Source: Larus michahellis
Lineage: Eukaryota; Chordata; Aves; Charadriiformes; Laridae
NCBI RefSeq assembly: GCF_964199755.1
Contig: NC_133911.1
Coordinates: 2,383,001-2,447,000, forward strand
Length of the DNA: 64,000 nucleotides
Reading direction: 5' to 3'
The stretch's first letter is position 1. Each line of letters opens with the position of its first letter. The position numbers and the translations under genes are program-made. The notes beneath the pieces are model-generated. The model had not been told where the DNA came from. It did no database searches and saw nothing but the letters and a program-made list of their open reading frames with translations. Of this stretch, positions 32,376-61,766 are shown in pieces.

Positions 32376-32609
32376 CTACGGCGTTACGTGCCACCATTTG
32401 AAGGTGAAGGGCCGCCGCTGGACGTTGGTGCCGCAGCGGACCTCCCCGAGCCGGCCGTGGTAGGAGGCCACATCCTCGAGGAAGCGGCAGCGGAGGCCCA
32501 GCGGCTCCAGGAGGGAACGGATCTGCCGCTCCAGGCAGCATTCGCCCCCCACTACGGGGCCAAAGGGCTTGGGGATGCCCAGGTCCATGGCCAGGACGAT
32601 CATGGTGAC
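32376..32609 (-). CDS. PADI2: PADI2 exon 16 (terminal), nucleophile Cys647
   Basis: 234 bases: [20 protein letters not shown] through [20 protein letters not shown], then VTP and TAG. The nucleophilic Cys is kept. The preceding His is Arg, and RRKP is QRRP. Confidence 0.97.
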
Positions 32610-35600
32610 CTGTGGGATGACACAAGGGGAGCCCAGCGGTGTCGGGACTGATGAAGCTGAAGGAAAGCCACTGGACACCCTCCTCCATCAGCCTCGTCCC
32701 ACAATGGGGCATCGACACCACGTTTTGCAGCTGCCTTCCCCCAGGCCTCCAAATCCGGCATCGCTTTCCCTTCTTTTATCATTAAAAAGCACCCCACACC
32801 TTGCCATTTCACCGCTTTGGAGGGTTTTCGCCTCAAAACTGCGTGGTTTAACGCAACCACAAGCAACACAAAGCCACAAAGTTGTGGTAGACCCGGATTT
32901 ATCCGAGCCTGGTTGGAGATATTTTCTTTTCCTGGGCAGCTGTAAATATTGTGCTGTTTTGGGACGATTTTGGGGACTCATCCTGTCTGAATAAGCTGAT
33001 TTTGGGGAGGACCTGAGGAACGGGGATCCCCCCCTCACCATGTTGGGGAAATACGGCACGGCTTTGCCCTGCTTGTCAAGCTTGAAGAGGGCCGGCAGGT
33101 CGATGATGTCCTCCTCCGTCAAGCCCAGCTCCTTCTTGAGGACGTCCCTGTTCCAGTCGATGCAGCGCTGGAGGGGGTGGAGAAGAGCAGGTCGAGAAGG
33201 GGGACACAGGTGGGCACAGTCCCCCAAAACCATCTCAGGCAGGAAGGGAACCAAAATGCAAAACCTTCCCTTAAGATTTTGCACCACCCTGGGGCAGTTA
33301 TTGCAGGAAATATCAATTATTGACAGAAATATCGGTTATTACCTGGACATACTGGTTCTGCTGCACCAGGATGTCGTTGGAAAGGACCTTGTTAATGGTG
33401 ACCCGTTTCGTGTCCGCCCCCGAGTACCCTGCAAATGCAAAGCCCTGTCAAAATGAAGCGTCACTGGTAGGAGCCCAGCTTAAAACAGGGCACAAAGATG
33501 GGAAAAAAAAAACCCAAATCCCCATTTCCTGAGCTTGGGGTTAAGGCTGCCGGGAGTCCCAATTCTTAGTTTATTGGGAAACTGGGTGGGAGGAAAACCT
33601 TTCCCCATTGGAAAGAGCGTTGGAAAGGTCATATCACCCATCCTCCTGCCCACAGGAATTGTTAGCTCCTAAATTTCTCCACCCAGCTCCATAAAACCAG
33701 AGCTACCACCTCCACCCCTTGTTTGGGGACAGCCATGTCCCGGGCAGGTGGCAGTGACCCAGAGGGACCCGTGAAGGTATGGAGATCTTCCCCCCAACCC
33801 CATCGCGGATGGATGGTGTTGACAATTAAAGGGTGCCCAAACTGGTTGACAAAATATCATTGCTGCAGGGAGGCAAGGGCAAGCGAGAAAAAAATGCTGC
33901 TAATTTGGGGTGACACGAGAGCCCCTCGGTTGTCCCCACTCCGTGCTGGAACTCTGCTGGCCTTTACAGAGATGCTCCATCCCACCAAGCAAGCATCCCC
34001 TCCGTGCAGAGGGCTTTATCCCTCCCGTCCCACTCGCTTTCCCAAAATAGGGCTTGAGGAGGCTGGGTATGGTGGGCAGGCATCCCGTTTGCCAGCCGTG
34101 AAGGACAACGGCATGGGAAAAGGTCCCCATGTCCCCCCGATACCCGCACGACAGTCAGGCGCTGTCGCCCTCGTGCCGGCTGCTCTGCAGGGTGGCTCCG
34201 GCTGTCTCAGCCGACATCAAAGCTCAGCCGAAGCTGCCCGCTGTCCCCTTGCCTTTGAACATGGTGGCTTCGCCCTGGCCTTCTTTCTGCTTCTCCCGAA
34301 AGAGCTTGTAGCATGCTGCGGGGCTGGCCATCAGCATCCGAAATCGCTGGGACAAGACAGGAGGGAAAGCAGTCACCAAAAGTGCCTTATCCAAAGCCCT
34401 GAGTGGTTTCTTTTTGCAAGGAACCTGAGCCCAAACTCTTTAAAATGAGGCATCTTGGCTGTTATTTAGTGCCTTTTTTTAATGGGGTGCTGAGGGGATA
34501 TGCCTGAATGAGGTGTCGTGATTTATGCTGTTGGCAAATAGCCACCTAAGCGTCCCTGAGGGGTTAAACTGCTGTTGGGACAGGGAGGAAAACTGCAGGC
34601 TCGGCTGCACCTGGGTCCAATCCTGCCCATCCCAGGTGGGGTATATAAACCCCAGGCAGGGTGTTTGCTGGAGGGTTGGGAGAGCTGAGGTGGTGAGTGG
34701 GGTTGTTGTTGATTTTGGTTTGTGCTGGGGTTTTTTTTTGGTGGTTTTATGTTTGTTTGTTTGTTTGTTTGTTTGTTTCTAGGCTGATGTTGCAATGCAG
34801 GGGACTTTTGAATTTGTAGGGTCTCAGCCCAAATCACGACAGTCCTGACTTGCTTCCCACCGTCAGAAATGGTCTGCTTGGTGGAGCGCTGGAGGCTGCT
34901 TGTTGTAGTCTTATGGTATCTCTTGCCAGGGCTTAGCACAGCCCTCGGGAGGGTAAAAGTGCTGTGGGGAGGGTTTGTGGGGTGTTGTGTGTACATAAAT
35001 ACTCCTCTTTTGAACCCTTCAGGTCAAGATGTGATTTCCCCAGGGGGAAAAATCTTGTGTCAGAAGCAGTAAAAACTGTGCTAGAGGAAAGAGCTGGCTT
35101 CTGAAAACATCTGGGACATGCTGAGCAGCTGTAAGCCCTGGCCAATCCACGTGAATCTTGAGGTTTAAATTTCTTAGACTACCTTTACAAGCATCTCTTT
35201 TTCTTCTCTGTGTTGATCATGAGCTCAGCAAGTCCCTTTTTGTGTTCAGAGCCCTCATTTTGGGGACAGAGGTGAGAACCTGAGCAAATACCGGTTGGAA
35301 CTGTCAAAAAAAAAAATATGAGCTTTGGGATTTTTCCCTAGAGGTGCCCCAATAGGATTAGCTGCTCAGGAGAGAAAGCATGGAGCGGGGTGGGGTTTTG
35401 GCGTACCTTCGTGTCGGAGGTGGGCACAAAAGTGACGAACTCATCGACGTGGCCCACGGACAGCCAGTCGGAGTAGAGCTCCACGGGAGCCTGCACTTGC
35501 TGGGCATAGAGAAAATCCCGCACCACTCTAGTCATTCTCCTTCCTGCGGATCTGGGGGCGAAATACCCCCGAGAGAGGGAATAAGGGGGATAAATATTTT

Positions 35601-38600
35601 TGCATTGATATGTCCGTACACCTAAATTGCGATCAAGGTGGGGGAAGGAAAGGAGGGTGCAAATGTAAAGGCAGAGATTGGGTGTATCCACTCCATAGGG
35701 TACCAGTTCTGCAGATGGTTAAGGAATGGCTAATTGAGGCCCTTAAAGTAAGTTTTTTTTATGATGTTTAGGGACAATTGTGGCTTCTTTGCTCCCAAAC
35801 ACATGGGTTTCCCATCTCTTACGTGGGGAAGCTGCTGCCGATGAGAATACGTCCCAGGGGATATTCCTTCCCTGCCACGGTCACGGGTGGGCTGACCTCC
35901 AGGTTGCCGAAGGAGTCGAGGGTGGTGATGGCTTCGAAGAGGGGCTCTTGGCACACGTAGCCAAAGTCTGGGCCCTGCGGAAACAAAAACCGCTGTGGGC
36001 TTTGCCCTGAATCCCCCCTGCTTCCATGCTTTTGCTTTTATCCCTTCTGCTGGCCTCAGAGCTGCTCCCGTGGGTAAAAATATCAAGAGTGAAGCCTCTC
36101 CATGGGTGGTGAGAGGCTAAAGGAAAGGCAAGAGGATAAAGGTCTCTGGGTCATCTGGGCTCAGTAATAAATGGCAAGTGCCAGGGGTAGAGCTGGGGCA
36201 TTGAGCTGGGGAGAGATCTCCTCTGCTATCCCACAGCCAATGTTTAAATGTCTGCATTAAGCTAATTAGGTGCTGGGGTAGCCCTGAAGCTGAGTTTCTG
36301 GATGGCTCTTGTGGAGCTAGATGAACTTCAGCCCCTGAGGAGGATCCACCCCAGGCGTAAGAGCCACCCAAAGGGCTGTGCTTCACTTAAATCCTATTTA
36401 AGCCCTGATTTTCAGGACTTAATATATCTGGGATTTAAGGCGTCGTGCATGCAGGGGTAATTAACCCTTGGTTGTGATGTGCCAGGGTCAAATGCCCAAA
36501 GGAGAGATTGCAATGCTAAAAACAGGGCAGAAATGGCAGTGGTGGGACAAAAATCCTGCCTTGAACCTGTCCTTGCTCTCCGGTTCAAGTCAACATGGGC
36601 TTGGAGCTCACGGCAGCCGCTGGGATGAGATCAGGTATCTCTTGGGTTTGCATTAAATCCCAATCGCTTATTAGTGTTGGGTTTCCTTGGGGGCAAACCA
36701 AATATACAGGTTGGTAAAAACGAGCAGGGAGACCTGAGGGTGCATGGCTTTGATCTCAAAAGTTGATATATTTATTTTTTTTTTTAAAATTGAGGGTGTT
36801 TGGAGAAGCTGGGATAGAGAGAGGGCAGCAGGGCTGCCTTTAGCCGGGGTCCCCCATGCGTTTTTGGGGTGCGTATCTGGAGGATGGCAGGGGGTCAGCT
36901 CCTTTCCCCGGGTGCTGCAGGAGGGACTGAGGATGAAACACCTGCTCTCAGCTTATTTCAGTTTAATAAACCACGGAGCCGGTACGGTTTCAACTGTCAA
37001 GGCGCTGGTTCATCCCAGGTTTGCAGGTCACATCCAAGTCCTATCAGTTCCAGATTGATTTTGAGGGGCTAATTCCCTCTCGTCTCCTTTTTCCCTGGCG
37101 CGGGGTCCCAGGGGCTTAGGGCTTGGCCGGGGCGAGAGGAGGACCCGTGCGTGTTGCATTTGGCTAAATATTCCTAGCTGGAAAATGAGATTGGAAAGAT
37201 AGGAGTGGGGATTAGGGAAGGCTTCAAAGCAGAAATTGGAGTATAATGTATTAGCAGCTCCAAAGGCTGAAATTGCTTCTCTAAATATGAAGCAAAGCAA
37301 TTCCTAAAGAGGGCAGATAGGAGCGGTTGCCCGGCTTATTTGCGAAGGAGCGGATCAGTGCGCTTTCCCATCCCGCCTGGTGAATCCGGGACTGCACGTA
37401 CTCATTTCAGGCATGAGAAAAGATGTATTTCAAAGCTTTTGAAAGTGCTTAAACTTCCCCAAAGTGACATGCAGCAAAAAAAAAAGTGAGCTGCCAATAT
37501 GCTGCCCTCTTCTCCCATTACTGCTGGAGAGATGAGCGGGGCTAAGGCTGCCCAGAGGGCCCAGCTGGGTTTATGGGGTTTATTGGTGGCTACCTGGGGA
37601 TGTCCTGCTTTTTGGTGATATCTCAAAGGGATTGTTCAATCCATCTTTTTCCCTATGCTTGTCTTTGCTGGGCTCTCACAAAACGCCCTGGCCAGGGTCA
37701 CTGCTCTCCCAGGCGGCTTTCTTTGCACGCCCTGTCTGTGGCTGTCGCTCTGCCTTGGCAGAGAAGACCCACAGGGATGTTTTTGGCAGCTGGCTGCATC
37801 TTGCTTCCTTCTGAGCAAGTAAATTGACCCTCTCACACTTTCCTTCCCTCTCCCGCTCGGGAGCGGCTACATATTTGCAGGCGTAGAAGAGGAAAGGAAA
37901 AACCAGCCCATTGCTCAGATATTCAGGGTGAAGAAATCCATTCCTCTCCTGGAGCTTGGCGGGAGCCTTTCGTTCCCAGAGGCGTGAGCTCCTCCTTGCC
38001 TCTCTCATCCAGCACCTTCTGGATAAAGGGTTTTCCAGATGGCTGGGATGTGGATTGGGCTCTGATCCTTGCTTTGAGGGGGGTGAGGCTGTTGGTGGCC
38101 TCCCAGCTGGAAGTGCATGGGGTAGCATCTCCGTGCAGCTGCATGCAGAGCTGTTAAACTCTCATTTTTCAGGGAATGCATTCTAGGGCATCCAAGTAGC
38201 CAAGTGCAAGGAGGGTTTTAGGAACAGTAAAATAGGGTAAGCATAAAATCCTTCAAGCTGCTCCTCAGGCAGTGCAAGTGACTGTCCTGCTCTTACCAGC
38301 AGCTCCTTGATGGGGAATCGCTCCAGCCCTCCATCTCGAGGCGAGTCCAGCACCACCGGGAAGCTTTTGTGGGGAGCGTGGGTGTAGCCAAACTCAATCT
38401 CTTCCTAAAGAAGGGAGGAAAACCCTCATGGGGCACATCAGCAGGGAGGGAAAGCTTTTCCCCCTCTCTGGTGTCCGCCTACCTGCATCCAGCGGTCCCC
38501 ACGGTTGATGTAGCCGAAGCAAGCCCTCAGCTCACAGCCGGCCTTGTTCACCAGGTTTTTTATCTCCTTGATGAAGAGGTAGTTGTCCTTCATGCTGGGA

Positions 38601-41600
38601 AAGTGGATGGCAGGAGGGAAGGGGATGAAGGGCTGCTGGAGGATTGATATCCCGTGCAGGCAGCTGCCGTTCCCTCTGCCCATCACCTCCCCAGCCTGTC
38701 TCGGTGGGGCTGATGCTGGTTTGGCTGGGAAGGGGTCATCCCTTGGCCTTTACCTGCAGACAAAGACGTTCACCGGTGCCAAAGTGTTGGGGGTCATGAT
38801 CCACGGTGCTACCCTGAACGTTACTGTGTCGGTGAAGATTGGCGTATGGGGGATACCCTGAGGGAGGCAAGCAGAAATTGGGGAATTTCCACACCCTGTT
38901 TACCACTATTTTCCCCAGATACCCTGCCCCTGAGGTCATGTTTGCGGTGAATTAGTGAGGACCGCTCGCCATTCAATCCCCTTCCCCTTCTCCATGCCCC
39001 TCAGGCTGTTGTGGCCTCCCATCTGCACCCCTTGCCTGGAGCCCCCAGACCTCAGCCAGGGTCTCCAGGAGGCTGACGTGGATGGAGACCAGCCCAGGGA
39101 AAGTGTCATCGGGAAAGCGGAGCCCCTCGACGAAGAAGTCGAGCTCGGCGGCCCCACCGATGTACTGCACAGTGTGGTACAGTTTCCTCCGCCCCAGCAC
39201 GTGGATGTAGCGCTGCCCGAAGAAGGGGTCTGCAAGGAGAGAAAGGGGAAAGTGGATAATTTCCGAAGTTTCAGCGATGGTTTCGAAGCCTATTTTGCTT
39301 GTGTGCAAGGAGGTACCGCAATCCCTCTGTGCTGGAGCTTCTCCACCTCCGTGGGTGGATACATCTTCACCTGGCAGAAGTACCTTAAAACAGGAATTAA
39401 GGGCTTGCAGTTTTACAGTTGCGGACGAGAAGGGCGAGGAAAAATGTCTCAGCCTTTCCTTGGATGGAGCAGTCATTGGCAAGATGTTTTCATGGGGTTT
39501 CTGCCTTTGCAGCCCCTCTGACCACCAAACCCCCCACTGACAGACTGCCTCTGTATTGGAGAACAAAGCCAAGCTACTTCATGGCACGTTTCTGGGCTGG
39601 ATGATGGCTTTTAGTCCCAGGGAATAAGTCTCTGTGCCCACATGTGGACATGAAGTATCTGGGTGTCAGGACACATGGCTTTTTTTTTTTTTTTGCTGGA
39701 TGACCTTGGATAAACGGCTTTATGGCCCTGTGCCTCTGCTTGTTAATCACCAAAGTTTTCCAATTGACTAAGAAGAGAGAACGTTCAACGCCGGAAAAAT
39801 TTGGAGGAAGGAGGCTGAGAGCATGATTTGCTTCAGAAGTGCCATTTGAAGAGCGTGGAGAGGACAAGGTCAGAGATGGAAAGGAAAAGAGTTTGCAGGG
39901 ATCTCAAAAGCACCGCAAACAAGGAGGAGGGGAGGAAGGACTTACTCTGCATGTGAAAGACCCCAACTTTGTCAGCGTCGGAGACAGGAATATAGAGAAC
40001 AATTTCATACCCCCGGGGCAGGCGCTGTGGCCCTTCAGTCCTCAAGACCATCCGAGACATGTCCAGCAATTCTGGGGTGCAAAACAAAAAAGGAAATTGG
40101 GTGATGGGTGACCGCACCATGCAGCTCTGGCCAGCTTGCGTGCTCCCGCGTGGGGTTCGCATCTCCCATGCCAAGAAATCTGCTCTTCCCTCGCTACCGG
40201 CCTTTGCAAGCTGGAAAAACAGCCTGCGGTCCTGCTAGCAAAGCTTGTGGCTTGTGCTTTGGAACAAATGTCCTCTTTCTTCTTTTTTTTTTTTTTTTTT
40301 TCCTTTCCCTCAACAGCCCTGGCAGAGCTGATCCCTGGCCTCAAGAAGTCGATGGGCACTGACTCCGGGTTTAGTTTTCCAGGAACAGGCGGGTATTCCC
40401 AGCCGCTGGCTGCATGCCTTGCCCTGAGCTCCTTTCACCTGCATGAAGCATCCGTGTGCCGAGCTCTGCCGTCACTGGCACTTCTATTTTTCTGCCTGTG
40501 CTTCGTGCCCCTGCTCGACCACAATTAGTTTGAGTGGCATTAAAAAAAAAATAAATAAAATCCCCATGTGGGAAGCTTACTCAGCAGCTTGGTGGAGAGC
40601 AGCTCATGGGCACTCGGTTCCCAAGCAAAATTTTGTCTCCAAAAAGATTAAAGAGGGGGGAATAATGGAGCATTTTTGATTTAGATGATGTTTTGTGTTG
40701 TTTTGGTTTTTTTTTTTTTTTGAAGCTGTGTTACCTTCTTTGCTGAATACCCTTTCGTCGTTGCAGTCTGATGCTGGAGTGAAGGGGCTCTCCTTGTCGC
40801 AGCTGACGAGCAGGATGGCCCCGTGTCCCTCGGGCCCCCAGGTCCAGCTTGCCTAAAACACCCCGCTGGGGCTTAGCAAGCTCAGGCTTTTGCAAGCCCG
40901 TGGGCTTTCTGTGCGGTGGAAGAGGCTGAATTACCTTGTTGGGGTTGTTGTTCTCCACCACGCCGTCCCGATCCGCATCGACGTCCAGAGAGATCCCTGG
41001 ATGGGCAGACCAGGGTATGGCAAGGTTGAGTGTGTGCAAAAGTGCCCCCCACCCCCCCAGACCAAACAAACCTGGGTTCATCTTTGCCCCTGACATCAAA
41101 ACACCCCACTCTGAGGGACTGAAGGGCTGAAGAGGGATTTTTGCATTGCAGCAGTCTTCATACTCACCGATGCCAGTGAGGAAGACCCCGGCTTGGTTGA
41201 TGGGCTGCCCTCCCTCTGCGTAAAAGCTGACGGTTACCTGCAAACCCCCAAATCCCTGGTTGGGGAAGGATTCTCTACCTCCATGGAGGTCCCACACCCC
41301 AGCACCCCACTTCTTACCTTGTTATCGTTGACTTCGGTGCTGGCCTGGCTCATGCTGAACCTCAGGACTGTCCCCTTGTCGAGTGGCCACCGTGTCGGGC
41401 TGCTGGCAGCTGACCCGTCCTCACTTCGGCCCTGGCATGCCACCTCTATGCTCACCCCCTCAGTGTGTTTCACGCCGAAGGCGACTGCCCCAGCTGGGGC
41501 TGACCTGCCGAAAACACGCCATCTTTTTAGAGGTTTGCACTGAAAACACCTGGTTCTCACTGCAATTAATTTCACTGCCCAAAACACAGCCAAGACTGGG

Positions 41601-43066
41601 CACGCTGGCGTCTCCACGCTCACCGCCGGCACCTTTCTGCCCTTTCCTCCCTCCCTGGGAGTGCTTTAAGTGTCTTGTTTTTTTTTTTTTTTTTTAGGGC
41701 AGAACACACTATTTTAGCAAAATGAATCTATTTTGTAGCCACCGGTGCAGATTACAATCTGTAATAATCGCAGCCGAAACAATCCGTGCAGCTGGAACCG
41801 GACTCGGGTTTGCACTTCAATGGAGAAATCCGCGTTTGTTTTCCAACCAAGGCAAACCTGGTATTTAACAACTCATCGTAATGGTGTGGCATCCCCGCTG
41901 AGAGACTTTACCATGGGAAACTCTAATTTTCAGGGTGATTTTATCCAACCCCAAAGCAGCTGGTGTCGCACCGCTCCCAGTCTTGTGTGCCTTTGCTTTT
42001 CTCCAGCTCCTCCACGCATCCCCTTCCCTTCTCCTGGCTCCTTGTCCCTAATTTCCCCGTCTTTCCAGGATTATTATTTTTGGGCTGCTTGCAGCTCCCA
42101 AGGTACAGGCTCCCTTTGAGCATGCATGTTCCTGACACCCGAGAGCTTGCACCGTATCACCGTTACAGCATCATTTATTGGGTTTCTGGATGCCGACGGC
42201 CCCGCCAAACCCACACCGGGTAGATGAGGGGGAGAAGGAAATCTGAGCGCTTGTTTGCTGCTGCCCGGGCGTTTCTTAAACTGTTAAATTACATTTAATT
42301 ATGCATGGAAAAACTGGTTTGGTTTCCTTGTTTCTGGGTTTTGGGAATCCCACCGGGAGGAGATTTGACCTGGAGAGAGATGCCAGATGAGTTTGTAACT
42401 GCGCTGCTTGGCTTGAATAGGGAGGGTGAGATTTGCAAAAGCAGCAAAGACCAGAATTAACCATGAAATGAGCTTTAAAACTTTTTCCTTTGGGGGAATA
42501 ATTATCTTGCAATGCATTACGTTGGTTTTAGGAGTGCAGGGCTGGTGTTGTGGGGACTTCCATGCTTTGCCAGGACACTGCTTGGTCACTAAATCTTGTT
42601 TTCCTCCCCTCTTCTAGCTGCATCCCCTCCTTTCCAGTCCATCCCCATGGCTCCTGCTTATCCCTGCGCTCTCCAGCAGCTTTCCAAGATGATGCCGGAT
42701 CTGTTGACCACAAATGGATCAAACCTGTCGCTGTTGTAGACCCAGGGTAAATACCGTGTCATGCAAACGTGGATGCTCAAAGCTTTCCTGGGATTCGCAA
42801 AGCCAGGGAGGATTTTGCCCACAATTTGCATTAAATCACAGTGTCAGGGCTGTGGGCTTTGGGGGAGTGGAAGGCAAAACGAGGAGGGGGGATTTGCAGG
42901 GAGGTAAAGGCAAGGAGAAAAGTGGAGGTGCAGAAACGGAGGGAGGAAAGGGAGCGTTGGGGAATCCCACTCACCCGTAGATGTCGACGGAGATGCGGGT
43001 GCCCAGCACGCACAGGGCCTCGATGCGGTTCCCATGCTGCAGCCGGAGTGTGCGGTCCCCTGACAT
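32376..43066 (-). CDS. PADI2: PADI2, protein-arginine deiminase type 2 (complete, 16 exons)
   Basis: The product is a calcium-dependent enzyme that converts peptidyl-arginine to citrulline. Sixteen exons join to 665 codons, exactly the human PADI2 length. The N-terminal immunoglobulin-like domains (exons 1-7) include the calcium-binding segment [15 protein letters not shown], and the C-terminal catalytic fold follows. His471 and Asp473 (SVGHVDEF) and nucleophile Cys647 (RCGTN) are present. Residue 351, the first catalytic Asp in human (QDEIEF), is Glu here (QEEIEF), and residue 646 is Arg instead of His. The C-terminus is WWHVTP rather than WWHMVP. Intron 13 uses a GC donor. The best match is to PADI2 rather than its paralogues throughout (for example [19 protein letters not shown]), and inverted orientation relative to PADI1/PADI3 agrees with the known cluster. 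Confidence 0.98.
33039..33167 (-). CDS. PADI2: PADI2 exon 15
   Basis: 43 codons: [34 protein letters not shown] and YFPNM. Donor gtgagg. Confidence 0.97.
33343..33428 (-). CDS. PADI2: PADI2 exon 14
   Basis: 86 bases: [20 protein letters not shown] through QNQYVQ (human SSKRITINKILSNESLVQEN). Donor gtaata. Confidence 0.95.
33429..34252. other. PADI2 intron 13 (GC-AG)
   Basis: No other feature recognised within this 0.8-kb intron. Confidence 0.6.
34253..34346 (-). CDS. PADI2: PADI2 exon 13 (GC donor)
   Basis: 94 bases: [20 protein letters not shown] through EATMFK. The donor is AAAG/gcaagg, a GC-AG intron. No usable GT lies nearby, and the join to exon 14 gives [11 protein letters not shown] in frame. 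Confidence 0.94.
34641..34650 (+). promoter_or_regulatory. Consensus TATA box inside PADI2 intron 12, antisense to PADI2
   Basis: gtatataaac on the plus strand. A donor-like ggtg/gtgagtgg lies about 45 bases downstream and an acceptor-like tttctag at 34776-34782. An antisense transcript could start here. This is inference only. Confidence 0.3.
34751..34778. repeat. (GTTT)7 microsatellite
   Basis: Seven uninterrupted GTTT units in PADI2 intron 12. Confidence 0.97.
35407..35551 (-). CDS. PADI2: PADI2 exon 12, catalytic His471/Asp473
   Basis: 145 bases with [20 protein letters not shown] and [14 protein letters not shown]. His471 and Asp473 are intact. Acceptor gcccccag, donor gtacgc. Confidence 0.97.
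35823..35974 (-). CDS. PADI2: PADI2 exon 11
   Basis: 152 bases: [40 protein letters not shown] and [10 protein letters not shown]. Donor gtaaga. Confidence 0.97.
35975..38296. other. PADI2 intron 10
   Basis: Unique sequence in the longest PADI2 intron (2.3 kb). No coding or mobile element recognised. Confidence 0.6.
38297..38404 (-). CDS. PADI2: PADI2 exon 10, catalytic position 351 is Glu
   Basis: Starts GAA GAG ATT GAG (EEIEFGY) after acceptor ttctttag. Human has DEIEFGY, and the PADI1 gene in this window has DELEFGY (GAC). The next AG, four bases in, would break the frame, so alternative splicing does not restore Asp. Confidence 0.96.
38483..38594 (-). CDS. PADI2: PADI2 exon 9
   Basis: Encodes [20 protein letters not shown] through NRGDRWMQ (human NRGDRWIQ). 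Ends with CAG before donor gtaggc. Confidence 0.97.
38754..38857 (-). CDS. PADI2: PADI2 exon 8
   Basis: 104 bases: [20 protein letters not shown] through VNVFVC. Acceptor ccctcag, donor gtaaag. Confidence 0.97.
39051..39229 (-). CDS. PADI2: PADI2 exon 7
   Basis: Encodes [20 protein letters not shown] and [20 protein letters not shown]. Donor gtctgg is a weak match but the join to exon 8 keeps frame. Confidence 0.96.
39230..39945. other. PADI2 intron 6
   Basis: Contains a T15 run near 39680. Nothing else recognised. Confidence 0.55.
39946..40071 (-). CDS. PADI2: PADI2 exon 6
   Basis: 126 bases: [20 protein letters not shown] through [11 protein letters not shown]. Donor gtaagt. Confidence 0.96.
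40072..40734. other. PADI2 intron 5
   Basis: Contains T-rich runs near 40285-40303 and 40708-40721 (A runs in the transcript). Nothing else recognised. Confidence 0.55.
40735..40852 (-). CDS. PADI2: PADI2 exon 5
   Basis: 118 bases: [20 protein letters not shown] and on to DERVFSKE. Human [20 protein letters not shown]. Acceptor gttttag, donor gtaaca. Confidence 0.96.
40935..40996 (-). CDS. PADI2: PADI2 exon 4, calcium-binding loop
   Basis: 62 bases encoding [20 protein letters not shown], the acidic calcium-site segment of PAD enzymes. Donor gtaatt. Confidence 0.97.
41168..41237 (-). CDS. PADI2: PADI2 exon 3
   Basis: 70 bases: [20 protein letters not shown] and TGI. Same length as PADI1 exon 3. 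Donor gtgagt. Confidence 0.95.
41318..41504 (-). CDS. PADI2: PADI2 exon 2
   Basis: Encodes [20 protein letters not shown] through [14 protein letters not shown] (human VTMSQASTEASSDK). Acceptor ttcggcag, donor gtaaga. Confidence 0.96.
41505..42974. other. PADI2 intron 1
   Basis: Unique sequence with a T17 run near 41678. No exon or element recognised. Confidence 0.55.
42975..43066 (-). CDS. PADI2: PADI2 exon 1
   Basis: [20 protein letters not shown] and [10 protein letters not shown]. The start aligns with human MLRERTVRLQYG. An in-frame upstream ATG at 43183 is rejected because it adds a 39-residue extension unlike the family. Donor gtgagt. Confidence 0.95.
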
Positions 43067-49227: not shown

Positions 49228-49319
49228 ATGCCCCAACGACACGTCGTGCAGATGTCCACCAGCCACGCCAGCTACGGCGTCTGCGTGTTGGGTACTGAGG
49301 TCTTCCTCGATACGCGCCG
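49228..49319 (+). CDS. PADI1: PADI1 exon 1
   Basis: [20 protein letters not shown] and [11 protein letters not shown] at -3 of the ATG. Donor gtaagg. Confidence 0.94.
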
Positions 49320-52300
49320 GTAAGGCTTGGGATGGGGGGTACCCCCATCGTTTTCCATAGGGCTGATGGGTTTTGGGGGAGCCCAACAGTGTCTTTACTC
49401 TTTCTTTGGAGGAGAAATGAGCGCTAGGGGGGAAATCGGAGCTCATTTTGAGCCCACACCATGAGTTCAGCCAAGGATTTGGCGAGCTTGTTCGGTGCAC
49501 GGGGGACACATCTCGCTGGGGCTGTGTTAAGGGACAACGTCCCATGCGGAGCTGCACCCAAAGGAGGGACGTCATTCTGGCAAATGTGAGGCGTCGAAGC
49601 GTAGCCGAGCCATGACGATTTGCAGGCAAAGCCCATGCACACCCCAGCTAAGCGGGATCTATTTCTGTCTGTGAAAACATTAGGCAAGAGCAATTCAAGA
49701 TGAGTAACTTGGTCGGAGCTAAAATGGGGTAAAGAATAAAATGTGTGGCTCAGGCAGAAAAAATCCACCAGCAGGTTTGCATGGGTGATTTCACAAAAAG
49801 AGATTTTTTTTCCAGCATTAAATACGGGGGTTGCTTTATTGGCCAGATACGAGGCTGTATTTACCCTGCTGTTACGTTGTCGTTATTTAATAAATCACGT
49901 TTATAATGATAGAGACTACAGGACAAGCCAGTTGGGATCGCATCCGGGGCAATTATTGGGATCGTGTGTTGGAGCCAGGCCAGGACGTGCTGTCGTCCCT
50001 CTGAAGGGCTTTGGATTGAGCTTTAGCTGCCCTTAAAAAGTATTCTTTTTCTTCTCAGCCGGATGGGAATATATAAAACCTATTATTTGACTTTTTTTCC
50101 CTGGCTTTGGACCGAAAACGAGCTCAGTCCTATTTAAACATGGAGCTCGAGCCCCTAAATGGGCTGATTTGGCTTCTCAGTAGCAAAATCTGACCTTTGG
50201 TCCAAAAAAGCAGAGGGTGAATGTTCTTTCAAGTAAAAAAAATGGGATCATTTTGTTCCCCGAGAGCACTGGCCAGGGGGAACTCGGTGATGGATGCGTC
50301 AAGGTTTGACTGCGGTTTGGTCCGTTTTGGGGCAGAAAATGGAGCACGGTGGGAATCTGATGGTGACGCTGAGGTGTGAGGGCTGTAAAATCAGGGCAAA
50401 TAGACCCAAATTCAAGAAGTCCTGGTATACAACAGCATGCAGGTGGATTTATGATGTTGCACGATGTTAAATACACGGAATGACGAATGAGATGACACTT
50501 TAATCTCCCCTTACAAGCTGCTGCAGGCACCAGGGATACCATGCCAAGAGCAGCACTGGGAATAAATCTCTTCTGGGATTTATTTTTGGTTTTATTCTCG
50601 CTGTTAAAATTTACTGCTCTGTCCCTTTTTGCGTGTGGCTGGGGAGGCTGGCTCCCGATGGCAGACAGGTTGGAGCACTCATGATCCTGGGATGGAGGTG
50701 CTGGGCCTGTAATGAGCAGGTAGGCAGCACTTCAAAGGCAAGGGACGTCATGCAGGTGGGGTGCGGGTTCTCCATGCTGGGATTCGGGCTCTACTCCAGT
50801 TTGGGCATCTCTCGGGTCAGGGGATGGTCCCATGATAACTATCTCCCCAGATGGCTGACATCAGAAGTTGTCCTGGCTCTTTGTCGGGGTTTTGTTGTGG
50901 AATGCTGAAGTTTTGGGGGTTTTCTTGCTGTTGTGGAGGGAGGCTGGATGCCCAAACTTCAGCAATTTGCAATCTAGGCTTGACCACGAACGGACGTGCC
51001 AAAGCTCCAGTGGGAGCTCTTCTTGCTCAACACCACCACAGAGATAATACATATAAAATTCAGACGACGTGTTTCGTCACCTGAAGGTGCCCTTTCCACC
51101 CAGTTAAGGCTGGATTTTAATTCCAGGTTCAAGTATTTGGCTCCACAGAGGAGAACAGGAGAGACAACTTGGTCTATAACCCCACACTGCTCTGTGTTTC
51201 AGATCTACCCCCAAAAGTGCCATGTCATTTGATGTCCATGCCACCTCCGCAGTTACGGTCCACATCGTCCACAACCCCACGACAAAACCCATGATTAACT
51301 CCAGATGGCCCCTGGATCCTGATATAGAGATTATAGTGACCATTGATGTCACCAGCAAGACCGTCAATGACAATAAGGTAAGTTGCTTTTTGTGCACTGA
51401 AACTGGAAAAAAAAGTTAAACTTTCCATGAAAGAATGGAGGATTGTGGGCAGGCTCAAGCATTTCTAGGTAATACTGACATTGGGCTTGTTTCCGTGGAG
51501 GAAACTCAAACTTAAAAAAGAATTGTGAAGTTATCATGTATGAAAAATGAAACTAAGAAGGAGAAGGAGATGAGATGATCACATTTTGTGCCCTAAATGT
51601 GAGGCAGCAGTGGTTGCAAAAGCTGGTGTCAGAAACTCCATGCCAGGCAGCAAAAGTAGTCCAGGCAGAAATGGTTCGGCTGAACTATGATTAATGGAGA
51701 ATGACTTGGATGAACCCTCCATGAGCTTGTTGTATAGCGTTGGTTGGTCAACCCACTGAGTGGAAAGACCTACTCAGCATGACGGGACATGGGACTTGGG
51801 TCACGATGTGGTGATGTCTTTGCAGGTTAAGATTTCATACTACGGACGGGAAGGCAATGAGCTCTCGGTGGCTTGGTTGTACCTCACCTGCGTAGGTAGG
51901 TATTACAGCAATGCTTGTTCAAAACCCGGCCAACCCTTTCTGATGCCAAGATCTAGTTGGGTTCATGGGATGGGAGTTAAGTGGGGGGCGCGGGCTACCC
52001 ATCTGTGATGTGCAATGAAGGTTTGGGTGTTGACTGATGCTGACAAGCAAGAGGGAAATAATTAAAATGTTATTATGCTGCCTTATATGGTGCAAAAAAG
52101 ACACAGGCTGGGCCATGTCCCCACCCAACACATACACCAAGCATCCTTCTCTGCTTGCCAAGACCATTGCGTTGGCAGAAGAGGATCCGAAGGAGACCAT
52201 CTCACCCAACTTTGGCCGGCGTCCCCCTCCTCGACCTCTGTTGCAGCTAGTGGAGAGGAATAGGTACCAAAGAGCAGTTGTCTGACCTATTTTAGAAGTT

Positions 52301-55300
52301 TAGGATGAGATGAATCATTCCCTTGAAATGCCTATTTTCCTCTGCTGACTACAAAGGGAGTCTAGACAACCAGTCTGGATGCAGAGCCTTCCACTTGGAT
52401 GGATTAATTACCCTAAATTTGGAATTTTCTAAAGCGTTCACATGACAGCCAGACCTGTGTCCTAAAGTCATGCATATGCCTTCCAAAAATTGCACCTGAA
52501 GAGGCTGATGGTTTCCCACGTCCCATAACTGATGGTCTCCACTGGAGCCATCTGGGGCCACAGCTGTCTGCAGGGCTTCTGCCTTACAAATGCTCTTCTC
52601 TTGCTTAGATTTAAGAGCTCCATTTCCAGCTTTTCCACGCCCTCCTCTCTGCGTGAAGGAGGACAATCTCTGCTTCAGTGCCCGTGTTTTTCACAAGCCG
52701 AATATCCGATTCGGAGGAGTTTCTGTATTAAGATAGGCTTAATACAGATTTAAGTGGGGTTTAGATGAGGTTGCTTTATTGGGCCAAGAAGAGCTCTGTA
52801 AGGGAAAGTCCTTCTCAAACACTGCATTGAGCCTAGTAATTATTCAGATGTCCACTCACCCGTGGTGAAAACATTTTCATGCCTCCACCGTGTTTTGGCT
52901 TTGTGAAAAACTCTACAGTCAATATGAAATTGTTGAAAACACAAAATATGCCCTGAAGTGAGTACGTCCCTGCTGGGGGTGCCGAGAAGGGAGAAGGTAG
53001 CTGGAGACCGAAGGGGGAAAGGCGTGAAAAAGCCATCGAGTTGGCTTTTCTATTGGCATTCTGTTGGAGACGTTGGGTCTGGAGCAGCTTTGGGGCGTGA
53101 AGGTGGGGTTGGGGTTGGCTGACTCATGACTACTGCCAAGGATGAGCCCAAAATGCCACCCAAAGCTCATTCCCCTGCTATTGGCTTCCTTCTCTCTTGA
53201 TGTTTCAGAGGTATCCCTGGATGTGGACTTGAGCCGTAATGGGAGAGTGAAGAGCAGAGGGAAGGACAAGGTAAGGAGAAGCTTTGCTGGAGTCAAAGTA
53301 TGGAGGGTCAAAGCAGGGTGCAGCCGTTTACAGTCTCTTCCCTAAAAACTGCCAGGAGGGAGAGGGACTTGGATGGTATAATTGGTGTCTGAATTAGAGA
53401 AAATAACATGGCAAAATCTCAATGTACTAATTGAGGTGGAAAAGACTTTATTTTCTTATTCCGTGCCAAAATCTCCTGCCTCTCCAGTCCAGCCCCAAGG
53501 ATCGTATAGGAGAAAATACTCTGCTTTCTTTTCTTTTCTTTCTTTTTTTTCTTTTTTTTTTTTTTTCTTTTTGGACTTGAAACGTGCCACTAAATGAGTC
53601 AGCTGCAAATTTTGCAAACAGCAAGAGATTTACCCCTTTGGCAACAAATCTGCATATGCCCAAGCACTTACACCCGGGTAATTAGCTGTAGCCCAATTGG
53701 CAGCGCAAATTGTACATCGAGATGAGATGCATTCCTAGAAACTGTGTAGTGTTGTCCAGATGAGGCCTGGCAGATACTGTCTGGCTTGTTAGAAGATAAG
53801 ATCTGTTTGAAATAGTCTTTGCTGGCCCTGCTAGAAGCGGAGGGTTAGGAAATTTAGTGGCTTGAAAGCATCGCTGCTGTCTCCCCGCCAGTCTTGACTG
53901 CATGTTGTGGGTTGTCCTCTGAGCGTGGTCGTGGGGTTTTCCCCGGTTTGGGAGGAGGCTGGGATGGGGGAAATCTCACTCCCATCCTCTTTGGGTGCTT
54001 CTCCTCCAGGCCAAGTGGACGTGGGGTCCCAATGGGCAAGGTGCTGTGCTCCTGGTCAACTGCGACCGGGACAGCCCTGGTACAGGGGGGCCAGACAGCG
54101 GTCAGGTGGACATACGGACCACTGCAGGTAGGGTGTCATCTGCAGCGCAAGGGGACCCAAAAGATCTCACCGGGGTGTTTCCCACTTGTAAGACCTCTCT
54201 CCCCTCTTTCCATCTTCTTCTGCTCCGTAGACCTTCAGGACATGTCCGTCATGCTGCTGCGGACTCAAGGTCCCAGCGCTATCTTTGCTGAGTACCAGGT
54301 GATCCTGCACGTCCCCGAGTCGGATGCAGATAAAGTGCGGGTTTTCCATGCTATCCGTGAGTATTCCTTCCTTCCCAGATATCCATGCATGACCCCGAGG
54401 CGAGTGGACCCGGATTTCTTTTTGTTTACCGCGGCTAGAGGCTGGGTACCTCCAATTGCTGGAAACGCTCATTTATCCCCAAAGCTCCTCTGCTATTCTA
54501 GAAGATTTGGGTTATATGGGAAAAATCAAAGGGGAAAGGATAAAAAAAGGCTTTTCTCAGGGGGGTTGCTGAAATGTTGATGTTCCCACGGGGTGGATAA
54601 CCCCTGCGTGGCTCCCGGCACCGTTTCAGTGAGGGCAATGACCCAGCTGCCAAAGCAGCCCATCTTGTTGGGCAGCGCGTTTTGCCTTTGAACACCCTGG
54701 CAGCTGGATCTCCAGCAGCTCCCCGCCGAAAATCAGGTCAGGGAACCCAAGCATATCATTAGATGCTTAACTGGAGCCACGCACCTTGAAAGGGTTGGAC
54801 CTGAGGGTATAGAGTCCTCTTTGTATGAGGAAGATCAAGTGTGCTCCCCAGAGAAGAGGAGGCACACCCGCTCCTCTGCAAACCGCGCTGGCATCAGCCA
54901 CCTCCTTGCTGGTGCCTCCTTCCAGCCCGGTGGACAGGTTGGTCACTCCGTCTTGGGTTGGGTATTTTGGTGTTTCTCTAGGGAGTGACTCACACCCCCA
55001 CTACAAACCCGTGTTGGGGCCGGACAAGCTCTCCTACGTGCTGGACCATGTCGGCAGTGGAGAAAACATCTTCTACGTTGAAGGGTTGGCTTTCCCCGAC
55101 GTGGGCTTCTCTGGGTTGGTTTCCTTCAGCGCCAGCTTGCTGGAGCTTCCTCATAAGGTACATGGGGTTTGCCTCATCCCCTGCAAAGTCCCCTAACAGT
55201 GGGGTGTCAACCATCGCTCCCTGGTGTTTCGCCCCTCGCAGAATTTGCCAGGCACCCCAATTTTCACGGATACGGTGGTTTTCCGCATGGCGCCCTGGAT

Positions 55301-58300
55301 AATGACGCCCAACACCCAGCAGCCTATGGAGGTTTTTGTCTGCAGGTAGGAGGGACGTCAACCCATTGCTCTCCTGCCTTGGGTGACTCTCCAAGGAGGA
55401 GCTTTTGACCTTTCCTTGCTACGTAGCAGCCATAGGGTGAGCCAGGCTTTATGCATGCTATAATGGAGGCAATATTTGGGTGGGAAGCCTGCTGGCACTG
55501 CTGCACTCATTGCAACCCCAAGGAGAAAGGTCGGAGGACCCTCTCCAGGGTCTAACTACATGCAGGACTATTACCCAGTGCAATTAGAAATAAGGAATGT
55601 GCTGCAGAGTTGGGGGGGGGGGGCTTCTCATGATCCCCCCTTGCAGCATTTGCTCCTTCCTCTCCCTCCAGCATCCAGCGGGGCCCAGACTCCAACGAAG
55701 CCTTTCTGGAAGGGCTGAAGGTCCTGCTGAGGAAAGCCAACTGCAAGTTGACCATCTGCTCGGAGGTGGAAACCCGCAGTGACCGCTGGATCCAGGTCAT
55801 CAATCGATGCTTGTAATACACAGCTCTCCTGGTCCCTTACAGGCTCCTGGGCATGTAGGGTGTGTCCCTGTTGCTGACACCCCTGGGAGGGACTAGCTGA
55901 GTTGCTGGGGCAAGCACCTAGATGCTAAGAGGTGAACCAGGCAACCGTGAACTAAAGCATGGGGAGATGCTGCTGGTGGTGGCAACCAGCGCAGACGTTG
56001 TCCAGAGACCCAAGGGGTCATTCCAAGAGGTACCCCGTTGCAAGAGAGACCCCATGGGACATCGCAAGAGGGGCCCCATTACAAGAGAGACCTAACGGAG
56101 GCATTGTGAGAGGGGCCCCATTGCGAGAGGGGCCTCATTGGGCTTTACCAGCGGGTCTCCACTGCAAGAGGGACCCTATAGAACATTGCAAGAGGGGTCC
56201 CATTGCAAGAGGGACTTTGTGGGGGCATTGCAAGAGGGATCCCATTGCAAGAGGGACCCTGTGGGGCTTTGCAAGGGGCTCCCCACTGCAAGAGGAACCC
56301 TACAGAGCAATGCAAGAGGGTCCCCACTGCAAGAGAGACCCTGTGAGACATTTCAAGAGGGACCCTGTTGCAAGAGGGGACCCTGTGGGGCATTGCAAGA
56401 GAGTTTCCGTTGCAAGAGGGACCCCACAGTACCTCTACAGGAGGGCACGGGCTGGATGTGCCGTGTGCTCCCTGCAGCGTGCCCAAGCCCTGCTCTCCCT
56501 TTCCCGCTTCCCTGCCCGTTGTGGCTCCAAGTTGCTTCCCCGGGGGTGACCTACGCCAGGCGCCACGGTGCTGGATAGGGTGTCACCCCCAGGGAGAGCA
56601 AGGCAACCGCTTCCCTTGGGCTTATGGGGAACTGCCAGGCTTTGCCAAGTTTGCCCCATTTCCTGCTCCACCTTCACCGCACACCTTGCCGAGATGGCTA
56701 TCACCCCGCCACGAGTTTTCCTCCTCCTCCTTCCTCCCCTTTTTCCTCCTCCTTTCTCTCCTCTTCTTCCCACAACAGGACGAGCTGGAGTTTGGCTACG
56801 TGGAAGCGCCGCATAAGACCTTCCCTGTTGTCTTCGACTCACCCAGGAACAGAGGCTTGAAGGATTTTGCTTTTAAAAAGATCCTGGTGCGTTGTTGCGT
56901 TGCCAACCCCCTTTTCCCTGCCCAAAACCTCCACCCGGGGAGTCCCCATCACCGCTCCCCTCTTCCCCAGGGGCCCGATTTTGGCTACGTGACCCGTGAG
57001 CTCCCCGGGAGAGAGGTCACCAGCCTCGACTCCTTTGGCAACCTGGACGTCAGCCCACCGGTGACGGTGCGAGGGAAGGAGTATCCCCTGGGCCGGATCC
57101 TCATCGGCAGCTCCCTGCCTTGGTGAGACGCGGTGGGGCTCAAGCCCTACTTCCGGGATGCAGGGAAGCACCAAAAATCCTTGCATGAGAAAAGGTTGCA
57201 CCCTTCAGAGCGGAAATCTGGGGGCCACTTCTCATCAAAATGGGAATTTGGGGCCAATTCCCATCAAATCCTGGATTCAACGTGCGTCATTATTCCTTCA
57301 TCCCTTACAAAATCCTGCCACCGCTCTGATTTTTAACTTCTCCCAAACTGTTGGTGCTTTTGCTCTGATCCTACAGTGCTGTAAGCATCCCGCCTTGTTT
57401 TTATTTTCCCTCTATTAAAAGGAAAAACAGGGGAATCCAGGAAAGAGTAGAATCCTGAATAACTGGAAATTGTTTTGCTCTGGGCAGGCAGTGCTAGGCA
57501 GCCCCGTGGGAACAACAGCGCCCTGCAAAATCCTCCACAAAGGAGGTTATTTTCCTGGAAAAATAACAATGGGGACCAATCCAGATGGGGTTTGATCCGG
57601 GATAACAAATGGGATGCTCCCACCCCAGCCCCGCTGCAAGCCAGGGAGCTTGCTTTGGTTACAGCGGCGGGTAAATGGCATTTTCCCAGCCTCGCTGGGA
57701 CCGTAATTATCCCTTATTACAAGAAGTTTAATTAATGTTTTCCCAGCCTGCTGCCGTCTGTCTAAGAAAACTTCACCCCTGTGTAAAGCGCTGCGTAAGG
57801 AGGGATTTAAGATTCACAGGGACGGGGGAAAATAAATCCAAAGGTGCCTGAACAGAACAGGGGATGTAATGCCGGATGCCTATAGATACATACAGCCTAT
57901 ATATATATATATATATTAAAAAAAAAATATGTATTTTAATATATAATACAGGTATATATTATATATAATATAGATATAGTAATATATAATATTTTGTATG
58001 TATATTACTATACTATATATTAATATATACTGTAAATATATTCATATATAACATATTTGTATATATTAATATATAATCTAGACATATATTGCTCAGACTA
58101 TTTCCAGCCTCTTCCCGGTGTTTCCCATTAAAACGGGATGTGCAGATGCTGCTTCTCCCCTTGGTGTGACGTTTGGGGGAAGGATGGGGGTAAATTTTGG
58201 GGAGGGGTGTGATGGCCGCCCGCTTTCTTCTCCTCCGTCTGCTCCCTAGGGCCTCTGGCCGGAGGATGTCCAAGGCGGTCAGGGATTTTCTTTACGCCCA

Positions 58301-59898
58301 GAAAGTGCAGGCTCCGGTGGAGATTTACTCGGAATGGCTGACTGTGGGCCACGTGGATGAATTCCTCACCTTCGTCCCCACCTTTGATAGGAAGGTACCG
58401 GTTCCTGGAGTTGTTCCTGCTCCTGCACGAGGCTTCTTCTGCAAATGCCAAAAAGAAAAAAAAAAAAAAAAGAAGCCTTTTTTGTAATTGTTGTAATTGC
58501 TTGTCCTCCCCACGGTGGCTGGGTGATGCACCTGCGTTTGGGGTGGCTTCCTGGAAAACGGCGAGTCCCTGGGTGGCATCCTGTGCACCCTGTGATGATC
58601 GTGGCATCCCGTACAACCTGTGATGGTGGCATCCCGTACAACCTGCAACACCTGGGGCTGGGTTTGGAGTCAGCGTGGTGTCTCTCGGCAGGAGGGTGGG
58701 AATAAAATATTCCACCAGCAGCAAAGCCTGAAGCCCTTGGCTCTCTCCCGCAGGGTTTCCGGCTCCTCTTGGCCAGCCCCAATGCCTGCTACAAGCTCTT
58801 CAAGGAGAAGCAGAAGCAGGGCCACGGTGAAGCCACGCAGCTCGTTGGTAAGGGAGCAGGCGAGGGCATCCCTGCGGCCTGGTGGGGACCACTGGCATCT
58901 GTTACTGGTGTCCCTTACCGGTCTGCTCTGGTCCCCACACAGGGCTGAAGAGCACTGAGAGGAGAAGCATCGATGAGATCCTGGCGGATGAGTCGCTGAG
59001 GAACGACAACAGGCACGTGCAGGTGGGTCTTTGCACCCATGGATTTGGGTGGGTTTGCTCACATCGCTGCCGGGTGATTTCGGGGTGCAGGGAGTGTTTT
59101 TAGAGATCCTGGGAAAGAGCAAGAAACTGTGGTACAAGTCGCACTGTGCAGCGTGAAAGCAGACGGGCAAGAAGACCAACCGTGAAGGAGCCAGGCACCC
59201 TTGGGTGCTGGGTCACCCCAGCCCATTGTCCCACTGGGAGGTGACTGCAGAAGTGTCAAAACCAAAGGAAAGAGGTTGCTCAGGTTGGGGATGGGTTCGG
59301 GACGTTGCTCAGAGGGATCGGATGGGTGAGGATCTGGGCAGGGTGCAATAGGGCACACAGGGGTCCATGCATGGGATTTGGGGTGCTGGGATGGCCTGGG
59401 GTGTCAATTCCATGTCCTCCCTCTCTGCAGCGCTGCATCGACTGGAACCGCGACCTCCTGAAGCAGGAGCTGGGTTTGAGCGAACAGGACATCATCGACA
59501 TCCCCCAGCTCTTCATCATGCATGGCTCCCGTGCAGATGCCCTCTTCCCAGACATGGTAAGACCCTCCGGCACCTTCTCCCCTCCAACCCCTCTTTTTCC
59601 ATCCACACTTGATGCAAACACACATTTTGAGTGGAAAACACTGATTTTTTGGTCCGGCTGGCAGGTGAACATGCTGGTGCTGGGCAGGCACCTGGGCATC
59701 CCCAAGCCCTTTGGACCACTGGTGGGTGGGCAGTGCTGCCTGGAGGAGCGGGTGCGGGCGCTGCTGGAGCCCCTGGGCCTCACCTGCACCTTCATCGATG
59801 ACTACTTCTCCTACCACGTCCTCTCTGGCGATGTCCACTGTGGCACCAACGTCCGGCGTAAGCCCTTCACCTTCAAATGGTGGCACATGGTGCCCTGA
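49228..59898 (+). CDS. PADI1: PADI1, protein-arginine deiminase type 1 (complete, 16 exons)
   Basis: A calcium-dependent peptidyl-arginine deiminase. In mammals PAD1 acts in epidermis on keratins and filaggrin. Sixteen exons join to 661 codons (human 663). Catalytic residues are Asp350 (QDELEF), His470 and Asp472 (TVGHVDEF) and Cys643 (HCGTN), all intact, and the C-terminus is the family WWHMVP. PADI1 is preferred over PADI3 because of MAP-like start [10 protein letters not shown], the SNEAFLEGL insertion in exon 9 (human PADI1 SNEKFLEDM) and [16 protein letters not shown] in exon 14 (human GLKHQAKRSINEMLAD). Many exon lengths equal those of PADI2, as expected for duplicated genes. It is divergent from PADI2 and followed by PADI3. 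Confidence 0.95.
49320..51202. other. PADI1 intron 1
   Basis: Unique 1.9-kb intron. No further feature recognised. Confidence 0.6.
51203..51377 (+). CDS. PADI1: PADI1 exon 2
   Basis: Encodes [20 protein letters not shown] through [10 protein letters not shown]. Acceptor gtgtttcag, donor gtaagt. Confidence 0.96.
51826..51895 (+). CDS. PADI1: PADI1 exon 3
   Basis: [20 protein letters not shown] and TCV. Acceptor ctttgcag, donor gtaggt. Confidence 0.97.
51896..54009. other. PADI1 introns 3 and 4 (around exon 4)
   Basis: Outside exon 4 the sequence is unique apart from a long polypyrimidine tract at about 53518-53573 (ttctttt units, then T runs) in intron 4. Confidence 0.6.
53209..53270 (+). 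CDS. PADI1: PADI1 exon 4
   Basis: 62 bases: [20 protein letters not shown]. The loop is shorter in acidic residues than PADI2 exon 4. Donor gtaagg. Confidence 0.96.
54010..54127 (+). CDS. PADI1: PADI1 exon 5
   Basis: 118 bases: [20 protein letters not shown] and on to VDIRTTA. Acceptor cctccag, donor gtaggg. Confidence 0.97.
54231..54356 (+). CDS. PADI1: PADI1 exon 6
   Basis: 126 bases: [20 protein letters not shown] through [11 protein letters not shown]. Donor gtgagt. Confidence 0.97.
54982..55157 (+). CDS. PADI1: PADI1 exon 7
   Basis: Encodes [20 protein letters not shown] and [20 protein letters not shown]. Acceptor tttctctag, donor gtacat. Confidence 0.96.
55242..55345 (+). CDS. PADI1: PADI1 exon 8
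   Basis: 104 bases: [20 protein letters not shown] and [14 protein letters not shown]. Donor gtagga. Confidence 0.97.
55672..55795 (+). CDS. PADI1: PADI1 exon 9
   Basis: [20 protein letters not shown] through ETRSDRWIQ. Twelve bases longer than PADI2 exon 9, a PADI1-type insertion. Donor gtcatc is weak. Confidence 0.96.
56010..56435. repeat. About 42-bp minisatellite in PADI1 intron 9
   Basis: Degenerate units like cattgcaagagggaccctgt plus ggggcattgcaagaggggtccc. The shorter sub-motif gcaagaggg recurs about every 20 bases. Roughly ten copies. Confidence 0.92.
56779..56886 (+). CDS. PADI1: PADI1 exon 10, catalytic Asp350
   Basis: 108 bases starting GAC GAG ([20 protein letters not shown]). 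The catalytic Asp is present. Donor gtgcgt. Confidence 0.97.
56971..57122 (+). CDS. PADI1: PADI1 exon 11
   Basis: [40 protein letters not shown] and [10 protein letters not shown]. An 84-base intron precedes it. Donor gtgaga. Confidence 0.97.
57895..58085. repeat. AT-rich alternating tract in PADI1 intron 11
   Basis: Nearly 190 bases of alternating TA and TATA/ATAT-containing words (tatatat, atataatat). It contrasts sharply with the GC-rich surroundings and can fold into hairpins. It lies about 170 bases before exon 12. Confidence 0.93.
58250..58394 (+). CDS. PADI1: PADI1 exon 12, catalytic His470/Asp472
   Basis: [20 protein letters not shown] through [19 protein letters not shown]. Acceptor ctccctag, donor gtaccg. 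Confidence 0.97.
58754..58847 (+). CDS. PADI1: PADI1 exon 13
   Basis: 94 bases: [20 protein letters not shown] through GEATQLV. Here the donor is an ordinary GT (gtaagg), unlike the GC donor at the same position in PADI2. Confidence 0.97.
58943..59022 (+). CDS. PADI1: PADI1 exon 14
   Basis: 80 bases: [20 protein letters not shown] and NDNRHVQ. Donor gtgggt. Confidence 0.96.
59431..59556 (+). CDS. PADI1: PADI1 exon 15
   Basis: 126 bases: [20 protein letters not shown] through ADALFPDM. Donor gtaaga. Confidence 0.97.
59665..59898 (+). CDS. PADI1: PADI1 exon 16 (terminal), nucleophile Cys643
   Basis: [20 protein letters not shown] through [20 protein letters not shown], then HMVP and TGA. 234 bases, as in PADI2. 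Confidence 0.98.
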
Positions 59899-61674: not shown

Positions 61675-61766
61675 ATGGCCCAGCAGCGCCGCGTCCAGCT
61701 TTCCACCCAACGTCCCACCAGCACCGTCTGCGTGCTGGGCACTGAGCTCTCCCTGGATGTCCGCGG
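61675..61766 (+). CDS. PADI3: PADI3 exon 1
   Basis: MAQQRRVQLSTQRPTSTVCV and LGTELSLDVR. 92 bases, as in PADI1 and PADI2. G at -3 and +4 of the ATG. Donor gtaagt. Confidence 0.9.

Follow-up and report, generated by a model that had tools for sequence, protein, structure and literature searches.

The PAD genes of the analyzed region

The window, meaning the whole 64,000-nucleotide stretch of Larus michahellis DNA analyzed here, contains PADI2 and two of its paralogs. PADI2 lies on the reverse strand (32376..43066) and was modeled as 16 coding exons encoding 665 amino acids, on the basis of a splice model, an open frame, and phmmer similarity to human PAD2. On the forward strand are found PADI1 (49228..59898), which served as a control, and the start of PADI3 (61675..64000), which extends beyond the window's end as far as position 68049 (extended coordinates of locus L009). 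Exons of SDHB are also present in the window and have their best match in 1yq3, which we take to be a chicken structure. Globin exons elsewhere in the assembly, assigned to adult alpha-A and beta-A by cluster position as in chicken, likewise point to a bird: the beta exon agrees with the bird chains 3eok and 3a59 at 72 of 74 positions and is identical to none of the five chains listed. Across the assembly (1.4 Gb in 616 contigs), scoring of the best candidates gave 19 PAD domain matches, all within three adjacent genes.

The PADI2 coding sequence comprises 1998 bases in the splice model, equal to 665 residues and a stop, with both start and stop intact. AG is found at every acceptor and GT at every donor bar one, with a GC donor (GCAAGG, 34247-34252) closing exon 13 in place of GT. 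The predicted protein matches human PAD2 over residues 3-665 with a phmmer score of 1121 bits, versus 748 bits for PAD3, and its exons match PF08527 and PF03068. Identity to human PAD2 is 71.0%, with residue 351 numbered the same in both proteins; PADI1 and PADI3 share 60.4 and 59.0% with their human namesakes, below the PADI2 figure. By sequence comparison, the gene is the PADI2 ortholog, since it encodes a full-length PAD and its closest human PAD is PAD2.

Two further observations concern the paralogs. Exon 16 of PADI1 (59661-59900 with edges) and exon 16 of PADI3 (67812-68051 in extended coordinates, L009) are 97.4% identical, or 97.5% over 240 bp with edges, and exons 4-15 of the two genes are 59-79% identical. 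This has the look of a recent gene conversion across the exon that carries the catalytic Cys. Intron 9 of PADI1 contains a tandem array (56007-56424) of roughly 10 copies with a period of about 41 (also 124).

A glutamate at the guanidinium-binding position

Exon 10 of PADI2 (38297..38404, reverse strand) begins in phase 0, is flanked by TTAG and GTAAGA, and opens with codon 351 (38402..38404), which reads GAA and encodes Glu at the position of the guanidinium-binding Asp of other PADs. The reverse strand near 38404 reads CGC TGG ATG CAG, followed by intron 9 and then GAA GAG ATT GAG TTT GGC TAC. In the alignment, position 351 is Asp in human PAD1, PAD2, PAD3, and PAD4, and it is Asp (GAC) in both L. 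michahellis PADI1, where exon 10 lies at 56779-56886, and PADI3. The guanidinium Asp (PAD4 Asp350), a feature of a competent PAD, is absent from L. michahellis PADI2, which has Glu351 instead. An earlier, sequence-only reading had placed Glu at the opening of exon 10 where human PAD2 has Asp, and had noted that PADI1 in the same window keeps Asp (GAC); the first statement is borne out by the codon and exon model and by the alignment to human PAD2, the second by the PADI1 model.

That reading had further held that shifting the acceptor could not bring back the Asp, and this stands after examination of the acceptor, the donor, and intron retention, by which splicing rescue was ruled out; in-frame retention of the 78-nt intron 9 reaches a stop and regains no Asp. 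A-to-I RNA editing was likewise ruled out as a route to Asp, as under the genetic code it can yield only Glu or Gly from GAA. A spare exon 10 was not found in the window, where tblastn gave only the exon 10 of PADI2 and that of PADI1 at E < 0.2 (all others E >= 0.23). Nor was a second PADI2 copy or haplotype found, with the exon 9-10 DNA matching the 1.4-Gb assembly once. The idea that agmatine deiminase or DDAH normally carries Glu here was abandoned, Asp96 of agmatine deiminase being the equivalent of PAD4 Asp350 (PMC4487231). The start of exon 10 now reads GAAGAG, a run rich in purines. Both Asp-to-Glu changes of PADI2 (residue 177 at 40070-40735 and residue 351 at 38402-38404) sit on exon-start codons, possibly by chance.

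In the Porphyromonas gingivalis enzyme PPAD, D130 is the equivalent of PAD4 Asp350 and is called indispensable, and D130A and D130N are among the mutants made (PMC4487231). In PAD4 itself, one study uses D350A as its catalytically dead form (PMC12803043), and another states that activity is lost when D350 is mutated (PMC11142921). The literature matches listed include no report of an Asp-to-Glu mutant at the guanidinium site, and among those listed from open papers there is no report of avian PADI2 loss of function or of a PADI2 of similar kind. Chicken PAD2 differs from human PAD2 at two residues within 341-357 (PMC8055403), an interval in which L. michahellis PADI2 differs from human at three (L342I, I349M, and D351E). 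If two of these three changes are common with chicken, Asp351 is kept there; judged by this count of differences, chicken PAD2 probably keeps Asp351. Chicken is also said, after a 2003 review, to have the Asn motif, with the PAD isozyme not given (PMC4487231).

Kept and changed functional sites in PADI2

The catalytic set Cys645/His471/Asp473 (PAD4 numbering) is present in PADI2 as Cys647 (TGC, 32433..32435), the catalytic His471, and Asp473, the second guanidinium Asp (codons 471-473, encoding His, Val, and Asp, 35443..35451; all reverse strand). Loss of the catalytic Cys, the mark of a PAD6-type pseudoenzyme, is not seen. The substrate residues Trp348 and Arg373 are also kept. The Ca1/Ca2 ligands Gln350, Glu354, Phe408, Leu411, Glu412, Glu352, Asp370, Ser371, and Asp374 are the same as in human PAD2, taking a ligand list that published text matches in part.

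Other positions have changed, all likewise on the reverse strand. Codon 590 (ACC, 32604..32606) encodes Thr where other PADs have Asn (PAD4 Asn588, PPAD Asn297), and PADI2 departs from the M/L-V-N-M motif with MVTM. Codon 646 (CGC, 32436..32438), immediately before the catalytic Cys, encodes Arg where other PADs have His, giving GEVRCGT as a departure from the G-E-I/V-H-C-G-T/S motif. In the Ca3 site, two of six ligands are changed in a way seen in no other vertebrate PAD of the comparison (human PAD1-4 and L. michahellis PADI1 and PADI3): codon 154 (AGC, 40802..40804) encodes Ser in place of an Asn ligand kept in 6/6, and codon 177 (GAA, 40070..40735), split by intron 5 between base 40735 and bases 40071 and 40070, encodes Glu in place of an Asp ligand kept in 6/6. 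Position 158 is Glu, like human PAD2. Five functional or motif residues of PADI2 (154, 177, 351, 590, and 646) are altered; the changes are read directly from the gene and are absent in the relatives examined. Judged by its sequence, it is missing the guanidinium Asp, the Asn motif, the Cys motif, and part of Ca3 from the features of a competent PAD. The sequence-only reading had described the frame as otherwise intact, which is correct for an open frame of 665 residues in 16 exons and does not carry over to function, given N590T, H646R, N154S, and D177E.

Several of these residues have been studied elsewhere. PPAD N297 is equated with PAD2 N590 and PAD4 N588, N297A is inactive, and the Asn is described as strictly conserved in the citrullinating enzymes of the superfamily (PMC4487231). 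Asn590 is proposed to polarize the catalytic Cys, a proposal that stems from PPAD. The Ca3 ligands of PAD4 are Asn153, Asp155, Asp157, Asp165, Asp176, and Asp179; N153A has 2% of wild-type kcat, with partial recovery in N153D and N153Q, D176A gives 9.7 versus 13.3 per second, and of two Asp-to-Glu mutants in calcium sites, D157E is near wild type and D155E almost inactive (PMC3559651).

The three L. michahellis proteins were aligned with human PAD1-4 and 11 cyanobacterial PADs. Private changes, counted where the six remaining vertebrate PADs all agree, number 16 in PADI2, 19 in human PAD4, 15 in PAD3, 13 in PAD2 (one of them a first residue absent from the alignment), 9 in PAD1, 8 in PADI1, and 6 in PADI3. 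The private-change total of PADI2 is ordinary; the kind of change is not. We listed 27 catalytic, substrate, and calcium positions, drawn in part from PMC3559651 and PMC4487231; the six other proteins agree at 21 of these, and PADI2 departs at four of the 21 (N154S, D177E, D351E, and N590T). The same count is 0/17 for each of the six other PADs, the denominator being 17 rather than 21 because L. michahellis PADI2 then joins the comparison set. This enrichment at functional sites is modest (hypergeometric P = 0.043) and the test was framed after seeing the data; listed sites that lie in non-invariant columns do differ among the other PADs, as in PAD1 at Ca5 and at one Ca1 position. H646R and R395Q fall in columns invariant in all 17 other aligned sequences, His646 and Arg395 being outside the listed functional set and spotted afterwards. 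R395Q is given little weight because the PADs of archaea, Paenibacillus, and Vibrio do not retain this Arg.

Conservation among prokaryotic PADs

Prokaryotic PADs were collected from 19 loci, cyanobacterial searches (19 of 292 genomes with a match at the level of the phylum and 69 of 291 at that of the order), four actinobacterial plasmids, and 32 further stretches of DNA; searching the order to which a Vibrio genome belongs, and likewise that of a Paenibacillus genome, each gave one genome above the cut-off (1/394 and 1/296). The resulting 96 loci exclude a fragment (L048), two matches below the cut-off (L064 and L065), and a sequence split over two frames (G1077). His471, Asp473, and Cys647 are all kept at 65 loci, which reduce to 59 distinct core domains and, at 90% identity, to 43 clusters; 30 loci do not keep them, and one is partial. 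Asp351, Asn590, and His646 are present in 65/65 of the intact set, which should not be read as 65 independent trials because the sequences are interrelated and mostly cyanobacterial.

The 30 loci lacking Cys647 (L039-L046, L090, and L092-L112) are cyanobacterial PAD-domain proteins with 30 distinct core domains in 16 clusters, in which the Cys is replaced by Ser (25), Asp (3), Thr (1), or Ala (1). They look like a group of PAD-like pseudoenzymes in which Asn590 is kept. Residue 351 is Asp in 17 of them, Gly in eight, Asn in three, and Glu in two, so that 13/30 are without Asp, and His646 is absent in 24/30. Both of the Glu351 proteins (L039 and L095) are also without His471. Asn590 is present in 30/30 of these proteins and in all 95 prokaryotic sequences covering the position; its loss is consequently not a known mark of a pseudoenzyme. 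Glu351 beside an intact Cys/His/Asp set was found in no other sequence examined, and neither was Thr590 in any set.

Interpretation of the PADI2 changes

We favor, with a probability of roughly 0.58, a real, lineage-specific PADI2 that is catalytically weakened or silent, its catalytic center having degenerated with the remainder of the protein conserved. With one more methylene than Asp, the side chain of Glu351, set between the calcium-ligand neighbors Gln350 and Glu352, should grip the substrate guanidinium differently. Thr590 should not back the catalytic Cys as Asn would, and next to Cys647 an Arg takes the place of an invariant His. Ser154 together with Glu177 should weaken the Ca3 site, which helps to turn the enzyme on. 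The expected product is a PAD that folds, may still bind calcium at Ca1 and Ca2, and citrullinates poorly or not at all; we infer that PADI1 and PADI3, with these residues kept, would carry citrullination in its place. Several observations count against a weakened or silent enzyme. It would be odd for a long-dead enzyme to keep Cys647, His471, Asp473, Trp348, Arg373, and the Ca1/Ca2 ligands intact, as PADI2 does. Asp-to-Glu is a conservative change, as the near-wild-type D157E of PAD4 illustrates (PMC3559651), the private-change total of 16 is below that of human PAD4 (19) and near that of human PAD3 (15), and the enrichment is modest (P = 0.043) and was set up post hoc.

The same retained residues could instead belong to a working but retuned enzyme, in which Glu351 would still bond to the guanidinium group, neither Thr590 nor Arg646 would do harm, and the changes would alter the response to calcium or the choice of substrate. 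Identity to human PAD2 above the figures for PADI1 and PADI3, along with the conservative nature of several changes, is consistent with this, yet none of the 65 intact prokaryotic PADs is changed at 351, 590, or 646, the PPAD equivalent of the Asp, D130, for which D130A and D130N mutants were made, is called indispensable (PMC4487231), and the literature matches listed contain no Asp-to-Glu mutant at the site; we regard a retuned enzyme as unlikely, while taking it seriously. The sequence-only reading had offered a weakened enzyme, a working one, or an error at one base; a single-base error alone is insufficient to account for the gene because N590T, H646R, N154S, and D177E sit at invariant or near-invariant positions. 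One base (GAA versus GAC or GAT) would be enough for a sequencing error or a private allele at codon 351, leaving a species that has Asp and other changes that are real and minor, and the probable Asp351 of chicken PAD2 (PMC8055403) would fit. This appears improbable, however, with no N in the window, only one copy and no trace of another haplotype found across the assembly (616 contigs, 1.4 Gb), and four more functional-site or motif changes independent of that base. Those four additional changes therefore favor a real weakening or loss of catalysis, as far as sequence can indicate. Recent loss of purifying selection, with the intact frame reflecting only the youth of a pseudogene, might likewise leave a single gene with five altered residues at conserved functional or motif positions, but we consider it very improbable: every one of the 16 exons is intact, as are the start, the stop, and the splice sites, and the number of private changes is ordinary.

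A more speculative and doubtful role for the protein is that of a calcium-gated binder of arginine peptides. With the Cys-His scaffold and Ca1/Ca2 kept and the guanidinium Asp and Cys-supporting Asn lost, it might close on peptidyl-arginine and hold or shield arginines without citrullinating them. Departing at the guanidinium Asp and the Cys-supporting Asn, PADI2 of L. michahellis would offer a natural experiment on the residues required for catalysis and on PADI2 roles beyond citrullination, and the presence of a PADI2 gene alone would be a poor basis for assuming citrullination in birds.

Comparison with known PADs and PAD-like proteins

PADI genes are reported from all the major groups of vertebrates, and the catalytic and substrate-binding residues are described as fully conserved in the homologs compared (PMC8826395). 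PAD6, the Cys-less cyanobacterial proteins, and L. michahellis PADI2 depart from that statement. The L. michahellis protein is like human PAD2 in its end-to-end alignment at 71.0% identity and in Cys647, His471, Asp473, and the Ca1/Ca2 ligands, and unlike it in D351E, N590T, H646R, N154S, D177E, and R395Q. The Cys-less cyanobacterial proteins share PF03068 with PADI2, and many of them also lack Asp351 (13/30, with Glu in L039 and L095) or His646 (24/30). Unlike PADI2, they have no Cys647, their Glu351 pair is without His471, and all 30 keep the Asn590 that PADI2 has lost. Human PAD6, an inactive oocyte PAD, is singled out as the one notable deviation from the MVNM and GEVHCGT motifs (PMC4487231), and PADI2 is altered in both as well. 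PAD6 differs in having Ala for the catalytic Cys and many calcium ligands that are not conserved (PMC11067741), whereas L. michahellis PADI2 keeps the Cys and the Ca1/Ca2 ligands. Asp353 and Asp359 of PAD6 are named near the active site (PMC11067741), and where PAD6 structures in the PDB match exon 10, the alignment begins one residue past position 351. PADI2 of L. michahellis would thus resemble PAD6 in its expected outcome, having reached it by another route.
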